DNA of 36,504 bases from Kribbia dieselivorans NBRC 106261 (GCF_001552435.1 NZ_BCRE01000060.1:1-36504); one strand, 5' to 3'; shown: positions 4,570 to 36,504, counted from the stretch's first letter. Program-made: numbers and translations. Notes: generated by a model from the letters alone, not told the origin.

Positions 4570-4583
4570 GGGTCCACTCCGCC

Positions 4584-4638
4584 GAGGGAACAATTGTGGC
4601 GACCTATCCACGGGTTAGGTCGCCACAATTGTTCCCTC
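4584..4638. terminator. Family C perfect palindrome between convergent genes
   Basis: Arms 4584-4606 and 4616-4638 are perfectly complementary over 23 bp, with a 9-nt loop that can add two further G-C pairs. The arm includes AACAATTGTGGCGACC and shares nothing with families A or B. It occupies almost the whole gap between the DUF3352 stop (4569) and the MATE stop (4652), so a bidirectional intrinsic terminator is the simplest reading. Confidence 0.85.
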
Positions 4639-4651
4639 GTCGCGTCGTTGG

Positions 4652-21027: not shown

Positions 21028-21077
21028 CGGTTCGAGGTATTAGCGACCGTTGCAGCGGTCGCTAATACCTCGAACCG
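21028..21077. repeat. Family A palindrome; likely bidirectional terminator
   Basis: Perfect 22-bp arms (21028-21049 and 21056-21077) with loop TTGCAG. The outer CGGTTCGAGGTATTA is conserved; the inner GCGACCG is specific to this copy and paired. It lies between convergent stops at 21009 and 21092. Confidence 0.9.
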
Positions 21078-22758: not shown

Positions 22759-22808
22759 CGGTTCGAGGTATTGACCGTCGAGATTCCGACGGTTATTACC
22801 TCGAACCG
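22759..22808. repeat. Family A palindrome (slightly imperfect)
   Basis: Arms 22759-22780 and 22787-22808 pair over 22 bp with one G-T wobble and one T-T mismatch; the loop is AGATTC. The outer GGTTCGAGGTATT is conserved and the inner GACCGTCG differs from other copies. It lies between convergent stops at 22727 and 22847. Confidence 0.88.
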
Positions 22809-28200: not shown

Positions 28201-28259
28201 CCCCCTCGGGGTTCGAGGTATTAAGGGGCGTTGTAACGCCCTCTATTACCTCGAACCGG
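28201..28259. repeat. Family A palindrome, first of a tandem pair
   Basis: Arms 28210-28232 and 28235-28257 pair with three inner deviations (one wobble, two mismatches). The 59-bp unit is identical to the one at 28266-28324, so this is a recent 65-bp-period tandem duplication. It lies between convergent stops at 28198 and 28351. Confidence 0.9.
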
Positions 28260-28265
28260 CCGCGC

Positions 28266-28324
28266 CCCCCTCGGGGTTCGAGGTATTAAGGGGCGTTGTA
28301 ACGCCCTCTATTACCTCGAACCGG
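28266..28324. repeat. Family A palindrome, second of a tandem pair
   Basis: Exact copy of the unit at 28201-28259; arms 28275-28297 and 28300-28322. The right arm is also identical to that of the copy at 29592-29641. Confidence 0.9.
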
Positions 28325-28740: not shown

Positions 28741-29604
28741 ATGGTCCGCACCTCGGATAGGACAAACGCGACACCCGACCACATGCTCGGGCACGTTCTG
28801 CGACCCGAGGACCTGCTCACCCGCACGACCTACTCCTCGGCGCAACCGGCCGCCGAACTGAGCCGGTGGGTCGAGCGGTACTGGTCCGTGGAGTGGCGTT
28901 TTGCCGACGGTGAGGAGTTCCGTTCGGTGACCCTCGATGATCCGTCGACGAACCTGACCCACGAGCGCGGTGGGATTCACCGCAAGGGCATCAGCGGCCC
29001 CGGCGTGTGGTTCACCGGCCCGGGGACAGCCGGGCGATTCGACGCGTATCTGACCGGGGAGGGGTCGGTGGTGGGCGTGAAGTTTCGTCCCGCCGGCCAT
29101 CACCCCTTCATGACCGGACCCGCCGAGATCACGGCCAATTCGACCTATCCGGCAGCGCGGTTCTTCGACCTGGCCGACGATTTGGCGACGTTGCCCCACA
29201 ATGCGGAGAACGCGGCTCCGCTGCTCGATCGGTGGTTGCTCGATCGTTCCCCGGAGGATTCAGCGGAACTGGCGCACCTGCGGGCGATGCTCGCCGATCT
29301 GGAGGCCCATCCACTCGACCCACTCGAAATGCTCGCCGAACGGGCCGGGTGCAGTCTGCGCACGATGCAGCGTCAATTTCGTCGCCTCATCGGGGTGAGT
29401 CCGAAACGCATTCGCATGCGCGCCCGGGTGTTCGCCGCCGCGGCCGAGATCGACTGTGGCTGGAACCGGACAATGGGGGAATTGGCCATGGAACTGGGGT
29501 GGTTCGACCAGGCCCACTTCGTGCGCGACTTCCGGGCGGTCACGGGCAGCACGCCAGCGGCCTACGCGGGCCGTCGGCCCGGTCCTCCTCCCGGTTCGAG
29601 GTAA
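28741..29604 (+). CDS. AraC-family regulator with DUF6597 N-terminal domain
   Basis: A 287-residue regulator. The N-terminal half (about 25-150: WVERYWSVEWRF, VWFTGPGTAGRFDAYL, VVGVKFRPAGHHPF) is the DUF6597 sensory domain. The C-terminal AraC domain has AERAGCSLRTMQRQFRRLIG and MELGWFDQAHFVRDFRAVTG. The last residues (PPPGSR) and the TAA stop are read from a family A palindrome, so the repeat has replaced or trimmed the native end. No ribosome site precedes ATG 28741; ATG 28783 (MLGHVLRPEDLL) is a possible alternative start that would give the divergent promoters more room. Confidence 0.9.
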   Translation: MVRTSDRTNATPDHMLGHVLRPEDLLTRTTYSSAQPAAELSRWVERYWSVEWRFADGEEFRSVTLDDPSTNLTHERGGIHRKGISGPGVWFTGPGTAGRFDAYLTGEGSVVGVKFRPAGHHPFMTGPAEITANSTYPAARFFDLADDLATLPHNAENAAPLLDRWLLDRSPEDSAELAHLRAMLADLEAHPLDPLEMLAERAGCSLRTMQRQFRRLIGVSPKRIRMRARVFAAAAEIDCGWNRTMGELAMELGWFDQAHFVRDFRAVTGSTPAAYAGRRPGPPPGSR

Positions 29605-29641
29605 TAGGGGGCGCTGTAACGCCCTCTATTACCTCGAACCG
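29592..29641. repeat. Family A palindrome overlapping the AraC stop codon
   Basis: Arms 29592-29613 and 29620-29641, 22 bp with a single G-T wobble; loop CTGTAA. The TAA at 29602-29604 inside the left arm is the stop of the AraC gene. Convergent gene on the other side ends at 29655. Confidence 0.9.
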
Positions 29642-29654
29642 CGGGGGTGGTCGG

Positions 29655-30290
29655 CTACTTGATGACGGCCAGTGAGAAGTAGCTGTCGGTCGGGGCGCCG
29701 GCCGCGTTCGAGCAGAGGACGTTCACCACACTCGTCCCCCACGAGCCGACGTTGCACCGCAAGCCGTAGGTGCCGTAGCCGGAGACCTGCACGTTGCCGG
29801 GGTAGAAGTTGAGCCCGGCGAAGGTGACGGTGTAGTTGCCCGTGCCATTGCGCACCGACGTGATCGGGCCCCCGGAACTGTTGAACGCGTATCCCGAACC
29901 GATGGCCACCGTTGTGCCCACGGGGGAACTCGGCTGGTCGTTCCACACGTAGCCGCGCACGAATCCGTGCGGGGCCGAACTGAGGTTCTTGCTCGTGATG
30001 GTGTTGAGCGCGATCTTGGATCCGTTCAGCGACCGGCTCTTGACGTCGGAACCGGTCAGCGATCCGTTCTTGATGTCGGTGCCGGTCAGGGAGGAGTCCT
30101 TGACGTCGGCGCCCGTCAGGGTGTTGTCCTTGATGTCCGCGCCGATCAGGGAATTGTTCTTGACCTGGGCCGAACCGACCGAGTTGTTGGGCAGGGTCGC
30201 GGCCAGGGCGACTCCGCCCCCGCCGACGGCGACGACCAGGGCGAGTGTGCTGGCGACATTGGCGTAACTGAGGTGCTGCAGAACCTTCAT
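29655..30290 (-). CDS. Exported protein with ten-residue SLTGxDIKxG repeats
   Basis: A 211-residue protein. A hydrophobic N-terminus (SYANVASTLALVVAVGGGG) serves as signal peptide. Residues about 40-95 contain five or six ten-residue repeats (DNTLTGADVK, DSSLTGTDIK, NGSLTGSDVK), a pentapeptide-like or trimeric-coil pattern. The C-terminal part (SGYAFNSSGGPITSVRNGTG, TVTFAGLNFYPGNV) is beta-rich. The opening matches a large actinobacterial family of unknown function whose members start LSYANVxATLAL and have SVGxxQVKNxS. A surface or spore-coat-like role is speculation. GGAGG lies 7 nt before the ATG. Confidence 0.8.
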   Translation of the reverse strand: MKVLQHLSYANVASTLALVVAVGGGGVALAATLPNNSVGSAQVKNNSLIGADIKDNTLTGADVKDSSLTGTDIKNGSLTGSDVKSRSLNGSKIALNTITSKNLSSAPHGFVRGYVWNDQPSSPVGTTVAIGSGYAFNSSGGPITSVRNGTGNYTVTFAGLNFYPGNVQVSGYGTYGLRCNVGSWGTSVVNVLCSNAAGAPTDSYFSLAVIK

Positions 30291-30384
30291 CGGAAGCCTC
30301 CGAGATAGACCTTCCCGTTGTGACGGACGTCACAACCCGTCAAGTACAGCAGCGCCGCGGTCGGACTCGCCAGAGTCAGGGTGC

Positions 30385-31725
30385 TCACCGCCCGTGGGTC
30401 AGGGCACCGACCAGATCCACCATCCCGAGCTGCGTGTCGTCGAGATCGGGGCTGAACCCCATGCGCACCACCACGAGGTTGCGCGACGGCACGACGACGA
30501 CGCGCTGCCCGTCATGCCCCGAGGCCCAGTAGGTGTCGGCCGGCATCGCGGAGTACTGCGTCGATCCATCGGCCAGTCGGTTGACCCACCACCCGGCGCC
30601 GTACCCGACCTCCTCGCCGTCGCCGCGGTGCACCTGCGTCGACCAGGACATCCAGTTCGGCGGGAGCAGTCGCTGGCCGTCCCACTGCCCCTGCTGCAGC
30701 GCGAACTGCCCCATCGCGGCCCAGTCGCGCGGCGTGGCCCACAGCGACGACGAGCACACCGGAGTACCGACGGCATCGGTCTCGAGCACCGCGCTGGACA
30801 TCCCCAACGGCGCCAGCAGCGTGCGCCCGGGCAGCGTCGCGGCGGGGGAGCCATCACGCTCGGCAAGGACCGCGCACAGCAGGTTCGTCGACCCGGAGGA
30901 GTACTGCTGATACCGACCCGGCGGGTGCGCCAGCGGCTGTTCGGCGACGAATCCGGCCATGTCGGCCCGGTCGTAGAGCATGGTGGTGATGGTCGAGCCC
31001 AGCACGTACTCCTCGTCCCAGACCAGGCCGCTGGTCATGCGCAGCAGGTCCTCGACGGTGATGTTGCGCCGGTCGTCGGTCCATTCCGGTCGCAGCGCGT
31101 CGGCGGTGACGTCGAGCTTGCCCTCGCGCACGAGTCGGCCGGCCATGAGGTTGGCCACCGACTTCGTCATCGACCAGCCGACCTGCCGCGTCGAGGCGGA
31201 GAACCCGTCGGCGTACCGTTCGCCGACGATCTGCCCGTCGCGGATGACGAGCACGGCCCGCGTGCCGAGACCCTCGCCGAACGCCACTCCGATGGCCTTC
31301 TCGACGGCCGGGTCGGGGTCGACCTTCTGGGCGGAGAACGGATTGCGGGCTGCGTCGGCGACGACCGGGGCGGGCAGCGCGGGTGCCGATGAGCCCAGCG
31401 TGCAGCCGTAGCCCTCGGTGTACCAGGCGCGTTGCTTCGCCAGCACGCCGAGGATCGTCGTGGTCGACCCGGTGTCGGAGGTGTCGCTTCGCAGGTAGGG
31501 CACGAGCGGGTTCGACGGCAGATCGGAGCTCGGATCGTCGCGGTGGGCGAGCAGCCGGACGCCGCATTCGTTTAGCGCCGCGTACCCCGTGCCGGTGCGC
31601 AGCATGGGGCGTTGCCACCAGTACCCAGCGGTCGCGGCGATGACCAGCAGCGCCGCGACGACGAGCAACGCCGTCAGGACGCGGCGCCGGCGGCGGGGTC
31701 GGTGGGCTCGGGCTGCCTCGGACAT
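30385..31725 (-). CDS. Membrane-anchored serine hydrolase, beta-lactamase/class C fold
   Basis: A 446-residue protein. An Arg-rich cytoplasmic start (HRPRRRRR) is followed by one transmembrane helix (16-36) and an extracytoplasmic penicillin-binding-like domain. The nucleophile motif is SMTK (S185, K188), the second motif YSS (Y275) stands for YxN, and GHDGQ near the C-terminus takes the place of KTG/HxG. These are features of beta-lactamase-family esterases and DD-peptidases, with esterase or amidase activity at least as likely as beta-lactam resistance. It is last in an MFS-Nudix-hydrolase run (25 bp after the Nudix gene). Confidence 0.9.
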   Translation of the reverse strand: MSEAARAHRPRRRRRVLTALLVVAALLVIAATAGYWWQRPMLRTGTGYAALNECGVRLLAHRDDPSSDLPSNPLVPYLRSDTSDTGSTTTILGVLAKQRAWYTEGYGCTLGSSAPALPAPVVADAARNPFSAQKVDPDPAVEKAIGVAFGEGLGTRAVLVIRDGQIVGERYADGFSASTRQVGWSMTKSVANLMAGRLVREGKLDVTADALRPEWTDDRRNITVEDLLRMTSGLVWDEEYVLGSTITTMLYDRADMAGFVAEQPLAHPPGRYQQYSSGSTNLLCAVLAERDGSPAATLPGRTLLAPLGMSSAVLETDAVGTPVCSSSLWATPRDWAAMGQFALQQGQWDGQRLLPPNWMSWSTQVHRGDGEEVGYGAGWWVNRLADGSTQYSAMPADTYWASGHDGQRVVVVPSRNLVVVRMGFSPDLDDTQLGMVDLVGALTHGR

Positions 31726-31750
31726 GACCCGAGCGTGCCACGAACCGGAG

Positions 31751-32173
31751 TCAGATGGAGCGCAGTTCGCGCAGCAGCGGCGCGAGGTCGTCGGCCTCCT
31801 CGTCGGGGGCGAGCCAGCGCAGCTCCGCGATCTCGGCGGCGACGGTCAGCTCGTGCTCGATCGGTCGCGGCAGCCGATACACCGTCGAGCGCAGCTCATG
31901 GCCCGCCTCGTTCGCCGCCGCGGTGACCCACTGACCGACGAACTCGAGTTCGGCCGGGTCGACGTGCAACCCGACCTCCTCGCCGAGTTCACGCGCGCCG
32001 GTGACGTCGGGCGTCTCACCGGGCTCCGGCTTGCCACCGGGGTTCATGAACAGGCGCGTGCCGCGTTTGCGCACGGTCAGCATGCGGCCGGCGGTGTCCG
32101 TGACGATGACGGCCGTCACGACGATGACCGGAGCGTCGTTCACCCGAGTCTCGGGTGCCGGAGTCCCGTTCAC
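31751..32173 (-). CDS. Nudix hydrolase
   Basis: A 140-residue Nudix protein with a complete Nudix box at residues 46-69 (GGKPEPGETPDVTGARELGE and EVGL), including the catalytic REL-GEE acidic residues. It should cleave a nucleoside diphosphate linked to another group; the MutT-like size suggests housecleaning, but the substrate is open. The ATG at 32173 overlaps the MFS stop in ATGA, so translation is coupled. An internal GTG (VNDAPVIV) is a possible shorter start. Confidence 0.93.
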   Translation of the reverse strand: MNGTPAPETRVNDAPVIVVTAVIVTDTAGRMLTVRKRGTRLFMNPGGKPEPGETPDVTGARELGEEVGLHVDPAELEFVGQWVTAAANEAGHELRSTVYRLPRPIEHELTVAAEIAELRWLAPDEEADDLAPLLRELRSI

Positions 32174-33711
32174 ACCGCCTCCGCCGCACCATCGCCCGAG
32201 CCCGCCGCAGCCGCCGCCGGCTCGCGCAGATGCTGCGCCTGCTCCAACGTCAGCGCCGCCAGGAATCCGAGCAGCACCACCGCCGCCGGCAACAGCATCG
32301 ACTCGGACAGGGCCGAGCTGATCGCGTCCCGCACGATCGGCGGTAGGGCGTGACCACCGGCGGTGGCGAGCATCCCCTCAGCGCTGCCGCTCGGCGCTCC
32401 GCCACTCGCCCCGGCGGGCAGGTTCGCCGTGATGCGCGCCTGCATCAGCGCGGTGATCGCGGCCGAACCGATGACCGCGCCCATCTGCCGCGTCGTGTTG
32501 TACACGCCCGATCCGGCGCCGGTGAGGTGCGGCGGCAGGTTGCGGTTGGCCGACGTCGCCAGCGGGCCCCAGATGAACGAGCTCGCCGCTCCCATGAAGA
32601 TCGCTAGCACCGACATCTGCCACAGCGGAGCGGTCGGGGTCATCCGCCACGACATCAGCGCGATCGTCACGGCGAACCCGAGCAGGCCACTGCACGCCAG
32701 GATGCGCGGGTGCACCGAGTCGACGAGCTTGCCGACCGGACGCGCCAACAGGATCGACATGACCGCCTGCGGCGCCACGAGCAGCGCCGCCTGCGTCGGC
32801 GACAACCCACGCACCAGTTGCGCCCACACGAACAGCGGGAACATCATCGCCGTGATGGCGAACCCGACCGTGGTGATCGCCGCGTTGGACGCCGAGAAGT
32901 TGCGATCGCGGAACAACCCCAGCGGAACCAAGGGTTCGGTGCGAACACGCGACTGCCACCAGACGAACACGACGAGCATGAGCACGCCGAAGCCGAGCAG
33001 CAGCGGCACCGAGATGAACCCGGTGATCGTGCCCCAGTTGTACGTCTCGCCCTCCTGGATCGCGAACGTCGCCGCGAGCAGGCCGATCGCGGACAGCGCC
33101 ACGCCGATCCAATCGAAGCTGTGGGCATGCGTCTCGAGGTTCGGCACGAGCCGCAGCGCCAGGGCGAACGCGATGACGCCGACGGGCACGTTGATGAAGA
33201 AGATCCACTCCCAACCGGGCCCGTCGATGAGCACGCCGCCGAGCAGCGGTCCGACGAGCGTGGCGACGCCCGCGGTGGCGCCCCACAACGCCATCGCGCT
33301 GCCACGACGCTCCGGCGGGAACGTGCGGGTGATGACGGTCATCGTCTGCGGCGTCATCATGGCCGCGCCCAGACCCTGCACGACGCGCGCGATGATTAGG
33401 CTGTCGATGGACCCGGCCAAGCCGCACCACAGTGACGCGAGCGTGAACACGACCAGGCCGATGAGGTAGACGCGTTTCGGCCCGATGCGGTCACCCAGGC
33501 GCCCGGTGATGAGCAGCGGCACGGCGTAGGCGAGCAGGAACGCGCTGGTCACCCACATGACCTCGGTGATCGTCGCGTCGAACGCGCTCAGCAGCGCCGG
33601 GGTCGCGATCGACACGATCGTCGAGTCGACGAGGATCATGAAGAACCCGAGCACGAGCGCCCACAGCGCCGGCCATGGATTGTCGGGCAGGCGGTGGCGT
33701 GATTCGGTCAT
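32170..33711 (-). CDS. DHA2-family (EmrB/QacA-like) MFS multidrug exporter
   Basis: A 513-residue transporter with about 14 membrane helices, the DHA2 layout. Helix 1 has the typical FFMILVDSTIVSIATPAL; motif A is ITGRLGDRIGPKRVY, motif C is TLVGPLLGGVLIDG, and the helix-1 aspartate (VDST) is the expected proton or substrate residue. It exports cationic or hydrophobic drugs with protons. CAGGAG precedes ATG 33711. It is the first of three coupled genes and follows the DHFR-like gene, from which a family B palindrome separates it. Confidence 0.94.
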   Translation of the reverse strand: MTESRHRLPDNPWPALWALVLGFFMILVDSTIVSIATPALLSAFDATITEVMWVTSAFLLAYAVPLLITGRLGDRIGPKRVYLIGLVVFTLASLWCGLAGSIDSLIIARVVQGLGAAMMTPQTMTVITRTFPPERRGSAMALWGATAGVATLVGPLLGGVLIDGPGWEWIFFINVPVGVIAFALALRLVPNLETHAHSFDWIGVALSAIGLLAATFAIQEGETYNWGTITGFISVPLLLGFGVLMLVVFVWWQSRVRTEPLVPLGLFRDRNFSASNAAITTVGFAITAMMFPLFVWAQLVRGLSPTQAALLVAPQAVMSILLARPVGKLVDSVHPRILACSGLLGFAVTIALMSWRMTPTAPLWQMSVLAIFMGAASSFIWGPLATSANRNLPPHLTGAGSGVYNTTRQMGAVIGSAAITALMQARITANLPAGASGGAPSGSAEGMLATAGGHALPPIVRDAISSALSESMLLPAAVVLLGFLAALTLEQAQHLREPAAAAAGSGDGAAEAV

Positions 33712-33733
33712 CGTGGCTCCTGGGTGACTTCGT

Positions 33734-33790
33734 CGAGTGATGGTTTCGGGCCGCCTCAGGCGCGCTGACGCGACCCGAAACCATCACTCG
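33734..33790. repeat. Family B palindrome overlapping the DHFR-like stop codon
   Basis: Perfect 17-bp arms CGAGTGATGGTTTCGGG (33734-33750) and complement (33774-33790) flank a 23-nt GC-rich loop. The last ten residues (SDGFGSRQRA) and stop of the DHFR-like gene are encoded within it. It stands between two co-directional minus-strand genes. Confidence 0.9.
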
Positions 33791-34316
33791 GCGAGGGGGT
33801 GACGGCGTAATGGGTACAGGCGAAGTCGCCGTTGCGCACGACCTCGAGCAGGGTCAGGTCGAGCGGGGCCGGCATGAACGGCTTGCCGGAGCCGAGTATG
33901 ACCGGGGCGAATTGGATCCACACCTCGTCGATGAGCCCGGCCCGCGCGAACTGCGCCGCCAGATCGCCGCCGCCGACGAGCCAGACGTCGCGTCCACCGG
34001 CCGAGGCGCGGATGGCGTCGATGTGTGTTGTCGGGTCACCGGCGACCTGGTGCAGATCGGCGCCGGGCAGGAGCTCGGTCGTCGACCGGCTGAACAGCCA
34101 CGTCGGCTGGGCGTACGGCCAGCGGCCCTGTTCGTGCTCGACCACCCAGCGGTACGTGACTCCGCCCATGACCAGCGCGCCCATGCCCGCGAGGAACGCG
34201 TTGTACCCATGCGGACCATCGGCGTCGACGTTGCGCGACAGCAGCCAGTCGAGGCTGTCGTCGTGGGTTGCCAAGAACCCGTCGAGGGTCGAGGCGGTGA
34301 AGTAGTGCACGGTCAT
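33756..34316 (-). CDS. Dihydrofolate reductase-fold protein (RibD C-terminal type)
   Basis: A 186-residue protein. MTVHYFTASTLDGFLATHDD, GALVMGGVTYRWVV, DVWLVGGGDLAAQFARAGLI and the end IQFAPVILGSGKPFM mark the RibD-C/DHFR family of NADPH-dependent reductases. Physiological substrates of these stand-alone members are unknown; folate reduction is unlikely. GGAAGGAG precedes ATG 34316. The C-terminal tail SDGFGSRQRA is translated from a family B palindrome, so the native end has been altered. A second family B copy lies just upstream, so the gene is bracketed by direct copies of the element. Confidence 0.9.
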   Translation of the reverse strand: MTVHYFTASTLDGFLATHDDSLDWLLSRNVDADGPHGYNAFLAGMGALVMGGVTYRWVVEHEQGRWPYAQPTWLFSRSTTELLPGADLHQVAGDPTTHIDAIRASAGGRDVWLVGGGDLAAQFARAGLIDEVWIQFAPVILGSGKPFMPAPLDLTLLEVVRNGDFACTHYAVTPSPSDGFGSRQRA

Positions 34317-34332
34317 GGCAACTCCTTCCCGT

Positions 34333-34389
34333 CGAGTGATGGTTTCGGGTCGCCTCACGCGCGCTGGAGCGGCCCGAAACCATCACTCG
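34333..34389. repeat. Family B palindrome upstream of the DHFR-like gene
   Basis: Perfect 17-bp arms (34333-34349 and 34373-34389), extended by a wobble and three more pairs; 23-nt loop identical at 18 of 23 positions to the copy at 33734-33790 and in the same orientation. It lies in the divergent gap between 34316 and 34519. Confidence 0.9.
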
Positions 34390-34431
34390 GCGAAGGTGTG
34401 GGGCGACTCGTGCAACGATACGCGCACGCCA

Positions 34432-34495
34432 CCCCACCCGGTTCGAGGTAATAGGGAGCGTTGCAACGGTCGTTCATACCTCGAACCGGGTGGGG
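34432..34495. repeat. Family A palindrome, chimeric copy in a divergent promoter region
   Basis: The outer stem is long and perfect (34432-34450 with 34477-34495, 19 bp including flanking CCCCACC). The inner halves do not match each other: the left resembles the 29592 type (AATAGGG), while the right (GGTCGTTCATACC) resembles the other types. A central CGTTGCAACG is self-complementary. It is the only family A copy not between convergent genes. Confidence 0.82.
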
Positions 34496-36433: not shown

Positions 36434-36504
36434 GCGGTGCGCCTCCCCCTCGCGGAGCGCCGCCCCCTCGCGGTGCGCCACCCCCTCGCGGTGCGCCACC
36501 CCCT
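36434..36504. repeat. 18-bp GC-rich tandem repeat running off the window
   Basis: Units begin at 36434, 36452, 36470 and 36488, each GCGG(T/A)GCGCC followed by NCCCCCTC; the fourth is cut at the window end. It starts two bases after the mch stop. The last two units are identical over the visible 17 bases, so the array may be expanding. Confidence 0.88.

Follow-up and report, generated by a model that had tools for sequence, protein, structure and literature searches.

Palindromic repeats that supply stop codons and C-terminal residues to genes in Kribbia dieselivorans

Two families of short palindromic repeats, which we refer to as A and B, supply the stop codons and last residues of some genes in Kribbia dieselivorans NBRC 106261. 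We analyzed a stretch of 36,504 nt (hereafter the window, which is contig C60 of a 3.29-Mb genome in 310 contigs), in which the gene for an AraC-family regulator stops inside a family A arm and a DHFR/RibD-like gene stops inside a family B element. We consider A and B to be non-autonomous hairpin repeats of ~63 bp that have been copied around the genome and kept mostly as two-way hairpins at gene 3′ ends, a reading to which we assign a probability of roughly two in three. The spread of a sequence is real, and we infer insertion as its route.

The family A consensus is GGTTCGAGGTA-N26-TACCTCGAACC, with copies of 47-48 bp, and that of family B is GTGATGGTTTCGG-N25-CCGAAACCATCAC, within a 63-bp unit with the ends CGCCGAG...CTCGGCG. 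Exact-pattern searching recovered at least 66 exact-arm copies of A and at least 21 of B in the genome (23 of B in a relaxed search with shorter arms), while the control for both families, the search pattern read backwards, gave 0. Identical 48-bp A cores are found at unlinked sites with unrelated flanks. The palindromes of the window have folding energy z values of -7.4 to -9.1, and the inner stems vary by compensatory changes, position 17 of the A core being G-C in 27 copies and A-T in 19. The A and B repeats are not due to chance. Family B had 0 copies in the 395 further genomes of the order that were searched; family A has named carriers in Intrasporangium, Knoellia, Phycicoccus, Terrabacter, Janibacter and Pseudactinotalea, and the family sample that we searched contained no second Kribbia genome. 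A search of Rfam gave no match for the palindromes, and the literature searched, covering Intrasporangium and other actinobacteria, contained nothing relevant on repeats of this kind. Family A has a C-rich left foot and a G-rich right foot, and its tandem copies are 63-65 bp apart. In K. dieselivorans, a C-rich tract on the left and a G-rich tract on the right extend for ~8-12 bases outside the palindromes of both families, including a copy within an MFS gene that is described below; the tracts may reflect a target preference or belong to the element. In Intrasporangium chromatireducens contig96 (L039:1859-2347), eight A cores stand in tandem with a 63-bp period.

Several genera share the 11-nt A arm exactly but differ in the inner 26 nt, which suggests selection on the arm and would be consistent with a role in DNA uptake or protein binding combined with termination, like that of inverted DUS pairs in Neisseria. 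However, the invariance of the outer arm is partly imposed, since our search pattern fixed the arm sequence. Uptake sequences are mainly single, whereas 132 of the 162 exact single A arms in the genome belong to the 66 pairs; those of the others that were read, in part of the genome, were mostly degenerate pairs or contig ends, with some lone matches. We regard this explanation as very improbable. Contigs C5, C13, C71, C73, C76 and C88 terminate exactly 5 bases beyond an A arm (GGTTCGAGGTATTACC), which implies that the assembly breaks in the hairpins and that the true copy number is higher.

The AraC-family regulator (28741-29604, plus strand; DUF6597 and HTH_18 domain matches) ends in PGPPPGSR, with the closing codons GGT TCG AGG TAA. 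The first 12 nt of a 48-bp family A core (29593-29640) are the last 12 nt of this coding sequence; the left arm of the palindrome encodes the final GSR, and the TAA (29602-29604) lies in the same arm. The core occupies a gap of ~50 bp with convergent stops on both sides, and the hairpin together with its C-rich/G-rich foot spans about 29584-29650. The convergent gene (29655-30290, minus strand), whose stop is 14 bp from the core, has no Pfam or NCBIfam match. Short Leu-Thr-Gly-x-Asp-(Ile/Val)-Lys-like repeat units were seen in this ORF at 30010-30170.

The DHFR/RibD_C-like gene (33756-34316, minus strand; RibD_C domain) takes its stop and its last codons from a family B palindrome with a 63-bp unit at 33731-33793 and a core at 33737-33787. 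The protein ends in YAVTPSPSDGFGSRQRA, of which SPSDGFGSRQRA is encoded by 10-12 codons running through the palindrome, and the stop codon (33758-33756) is inside the core, just beyond the palindrome center in the inner stem of the far half. An earlier note on this DNA had located the AraC end, GSR and stop, within a family A arm and the DHFR-like stop within a family B element, and the coordinates that it gave are exact for both. The element at 33731-33793 sits between the end of the DHFR-like gene and the RBS of an MFS gene (32170-33711), and a second family B palindrome (34330-34392, core 34336-34386) lies just upstream of the DHFR-like gene's own RBS, with 90% identity between the two over 71 nt (33731-33801 vs 34330-34400). 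The DHFR-like gene is bracketed by these two elements, each of them immediately upstream of the next RBS.

The earlier note had proposed that alignment with repeat-free homologues would show C-termini differing exactly from the repeat boundary. For the DHFR-like protein this is about what we found. Its eight closest homologues (43-54% identity), from genomes without family B, stop 2 to 7 residues past a conserved YxV, whereas the window protein continues with TP and then 12 residues from the B element. The tail is thus an addition relative to the homologues, and it begins at about the element boundary. For AraC the alignment was not decisive, as the tails of the homologues differ by 0-8 residues and the element boundary is unreadable from them.

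One family B copy lies within a coding sequence. It was found on contig C74 (G000:C74:7291-7342; L027:1495-1558), where a 52-bp core is in frame within the gene of a 566-aa MFS transporter and the linker reads ...SRPQTPP-SDGFGPPQGPPRRPETIT-RRRAVARG.... None of the 29 aligned MFS orthologues (64-71% identity) carries a B copy. Compact orthologues have ~8 residues in the linker, a figure that gives the ancestral length inexactly, since linker length is variable. This in-frame copy is the strongest single argument that the element has spread, as there is no reason for a terminator to arise within a gene.

Gene ends written by the elements were also found elsewhere. Twelve gene ends in the genome face an A arm that, read in the frame for GSR, has a stop at bases 10-12. 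Five of them use it, namely AraC, L149, L150 and the gene pair at L276; of the 63 ends that face the remaining A arms, none overlaps its element. Taking the stop from the arm is the minority situation, applying to 5 of the 75 ends that face one in the DNA that we analyzed. In other genera, 4 of 24 stop-bearing A arms are used, by genes for Tpx (L032), a threonine-dehydratase-like protein (L041), F420-G6P dehydrogenase (L048) and IspF (L058), so that GSR and a stop from an A arm close nine genes in all, in several genera. Also in other genera, the genes at L051 and L072 end deeper in an A element, the former with the tail GSRYSADTTDR and the latter in another frame. In addition to the DHFR-like gene, those at L022, L030 and L165 end inside a B element. 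For both IspF and Tpx, the family model or a solved chain stops within about 1-3 residues of the start of GSR, so that the A arm replaces the last residues and adds no long tail. In Knoellia, the F420-G6P dehydrogenase with an A element runs on as EPGVPAGSR; ten Knoellia-group FGD orthologues stop 1-2 residues past REL, and the A-bearing copy ends in RELEPGVPAGSR. The downstream neighborhood of this carrier is different, and it may represent a separate gene lineage. At L276:5234-5283 (G000:C51), a single A-type palindrome with GGTTCGAGGTGA arms closes two convergent genes with GSR and a stop, one per arm, namely those for an MFS transporter and treZ, the latter identified by a TIGR02402 match.

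We analyzed the placement of the copies using gene calls from a simple codon-usage gene model. Copies of A and B lie mostly 5-40 bp past stop codons, and A is chiefly between convergent genes: 29 of 47 classified A copies and 8 of 21 B copies in this genome are in 3′-3′ gaps. The preference of A is similar in other genera (22 of 50 sites), where the flanking genes are mostly different from those at the A and B copies here. The median distance from stop to A core was 22 bp for the 75 3′ ends that face an A arm. In 264 kb picked without regard to the elements, some contigs of the selection being short or masked as N, 14 of the 23 convergent gaps contained a strong palindrome, as did 12 of the 112 remaining ones (Fisher P = 8e-7). 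Insertion at or just before native stops, as the earlier note had put it, does not describe most copies, which are off the stop. Nor does its argument that repeats overlapping gene ends speak against local terminator evolution hold by itself: single-copy hairpins of similar size occupy convergent gaps too, and since 2 of 18 of these overlap a stop, overlap alone cannot tell insertion from terminators evolving locally.

The same observations could be accounted for if bidirectional terminators had evolved in place and been homogenized by gene conversion, with stop overlap arising from tight 3′ spacing. The single-copy hairpins in the same gaps and the many A and B copies that lie clear of the stop agree with this, as do palindrome groups that have common CGCCGAG...CTCGGCG ends and differing interiors, although such groups fit insertion as well as mosaic conversion. 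Against it are the B copy within the MFS gene, where no terminator would be expected, the clean addition of the DHFR-like tail from the element boundary, and the absence of B from all 395 other genomes of the order vs its 23 relaxed copies here. We consider evolution in place unlikely and favor repeats that were copied around the genome.

With terminators, A and B share a stable G+C-rich hairpin just past the stop. There is no U-run after the hairpins, which are followed by G-rich sequence instead, and a terminator scan did not have them among those listed. It is their position that suggests two-way termination. With MITEs they share inverted-repeat ends, many copies and lack of transposase coding capacity. 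Classical MITEs, which are deletion derivatives of IS elements, are mobilized in trans and have terminal inverted repeats as well as target duplications, would also explain the in-frame coding insertion, and the 3′-end insertions resemble those of the Coxiella QMITEs (PMC5896051). However, when 48 A and 20 B copies were compared with re-paired flanks, no excess of direct repeats was present at any offset in either family, and among the single A arms read in part of the genome none was seen to bracket a longer element. We consider this origin improbable. Short, imperfect extragenic palindromes, sometimes in tandem at a period of 63-65 bp, also bring to mind REP/BIME elements moved by a RAYT (TnpA-REP, Y1 transposase). 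Neither the K. dieselivorans genome nor any A-bearing genome of the family sample has the Y1 domain PF01797; the domain is present in 4 of the 149 genomes of that sample, none of which has exact A copies, and we give this origin hardly any weight. Membership of A and B in either the MITE or the REP/RAYT class is not established, one defining feature of each having been looked for and found missing. No A copies were present in viral contigs. The earlier note's suggestion of real mobility is upheld in that both families have many dispersed copies, the extra DHFR-like tail starts from an element boundary, GSR and a stop from A arms close unrelated genes in several genera, and B stands in frame in an MFS gene; it is not upheld as regards insertion as the copying route, for which neither target duplications nor a Y1 transposase were found.

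In the reading that we prefer, that of hairpin repeats copied around the genome, A and B hairpins lying between genes that are convergent or in tandem would serve as transcription terminators or as 3′ RNA barriers. Where a copy falls on a gene end or directly beside it, translation would enter the arm. In the family A frame GGT-TCG-AGG-TAA/TAG/TGA this would yield GSR and a stop, and in the family B frame GAG-TGA a terminal E and a stop; the other B frame is open and would yield SDGFG..., with a stop in the far half (as in the DHFR-like gene) or none (as in the MFS gene). The gene would survive such an event if a few added residues do no harm at a C-terminus or in a linker loop. Copying would proceed by insertion and not by ectopic gene conversion between terminators, through an enzyme that, like the insertion itself, we infer. 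Much more tentatively, families of palindromes whose outer arm is sequence-specific and retained across genera might constitute portable gene ends that spread without a transposase of known type, one unit providing stops, last residues and a terminator for two convergent genes.

The principle of elements rewriting gene ends has already been described in Coxiella and Rickettsia, and A and B are a fresh example. In Coxiella burnetii, QMITE1 and QMITE2 are reported to provide functional genes with stop codons and short C-terminal peptides and to be sometimes in frame within ORFs (PMC5896051). They are the closest published precedent, being alike in gene 3′-end insertions that give stops and tails and in occasional in-frame internal copies. 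They differ in sequence and organism and are described as MITEs, whereas most A and B copies are in intergenic gaps where two genes converge, and neither family shows target duplications. Rickettsia palindromic elements, of about 150 bp and with a conserved peptide, insert in frame inside genes, nearly half of them being in ORFs (PMC10969869). The MFS copy on C74 matches this pattern of short palindromic repeats in frame in unrelated genes, but only 1 of about 70 A and B copies is internal to a gene, the others being at ends or between genes. REP/BIME elements with RAYTs are similar in being short extragenic palindromes, in tandem pairs and near gene 3′ ends, and differ in that the genome with A and B has no Y1 transposase. 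The SPRITE elements of Streptococcus pneumoniae are dispersed repeats resembling intrinsic terminators (PMC10969869). A and B are likewise dispersed and terminator-like, and are set apart from SPRITEs as described by the lack of a U-run and by long G+C-rich hairpins. With dozens of copies in several families and several Micrococcales genera, these repeats provide a countable system for palindrome spread and the rewriting of C-termini. For annotators, tails of GSR and stop or of SDGFG in the clade bearing A and B are repeat-derived.

The window contains further palindromes. Family A copies lie between convergent genes at 1488-1535 (11 and 25 bp from the stops), 21029-21076 (19 and 15 bp) and 22760-22807 (32 and 39 bp); two identical A cores are in tandem between convergent genes at 28210-28322 (28210-28257 and 28275-28322, period 65), and one A palindrome lies in a divergent gap (34440-34487). 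A palindrome of similar size with a CGAGGG...CCCTCG foot, which we place in a group C, is located between convergent genes at 4583-4639. As a repeat family in its own right it was rejected, since its exact arms give one copy; relatives with diverged arms occur in the wider sample. Groups B2, C and D, of ~63 bp, have the same CGCCGAG...CTCGGCG outer ends as B with other middle and inner modules, in an exchange-like pattern; loci of these further groups are window 4583-4639 and L257, L261, L262, L264, L268, L270, L271, L272, L274 and L275. The contig starts with the right half of a B-like element (1-33; CTGAGGCGGCCCGAATCCATCACTCGGCG), and tandem 18-bp repeats (CGCGGTGCGCCNCCCCCT-like) run from 36433 to the end of the window at 36504.
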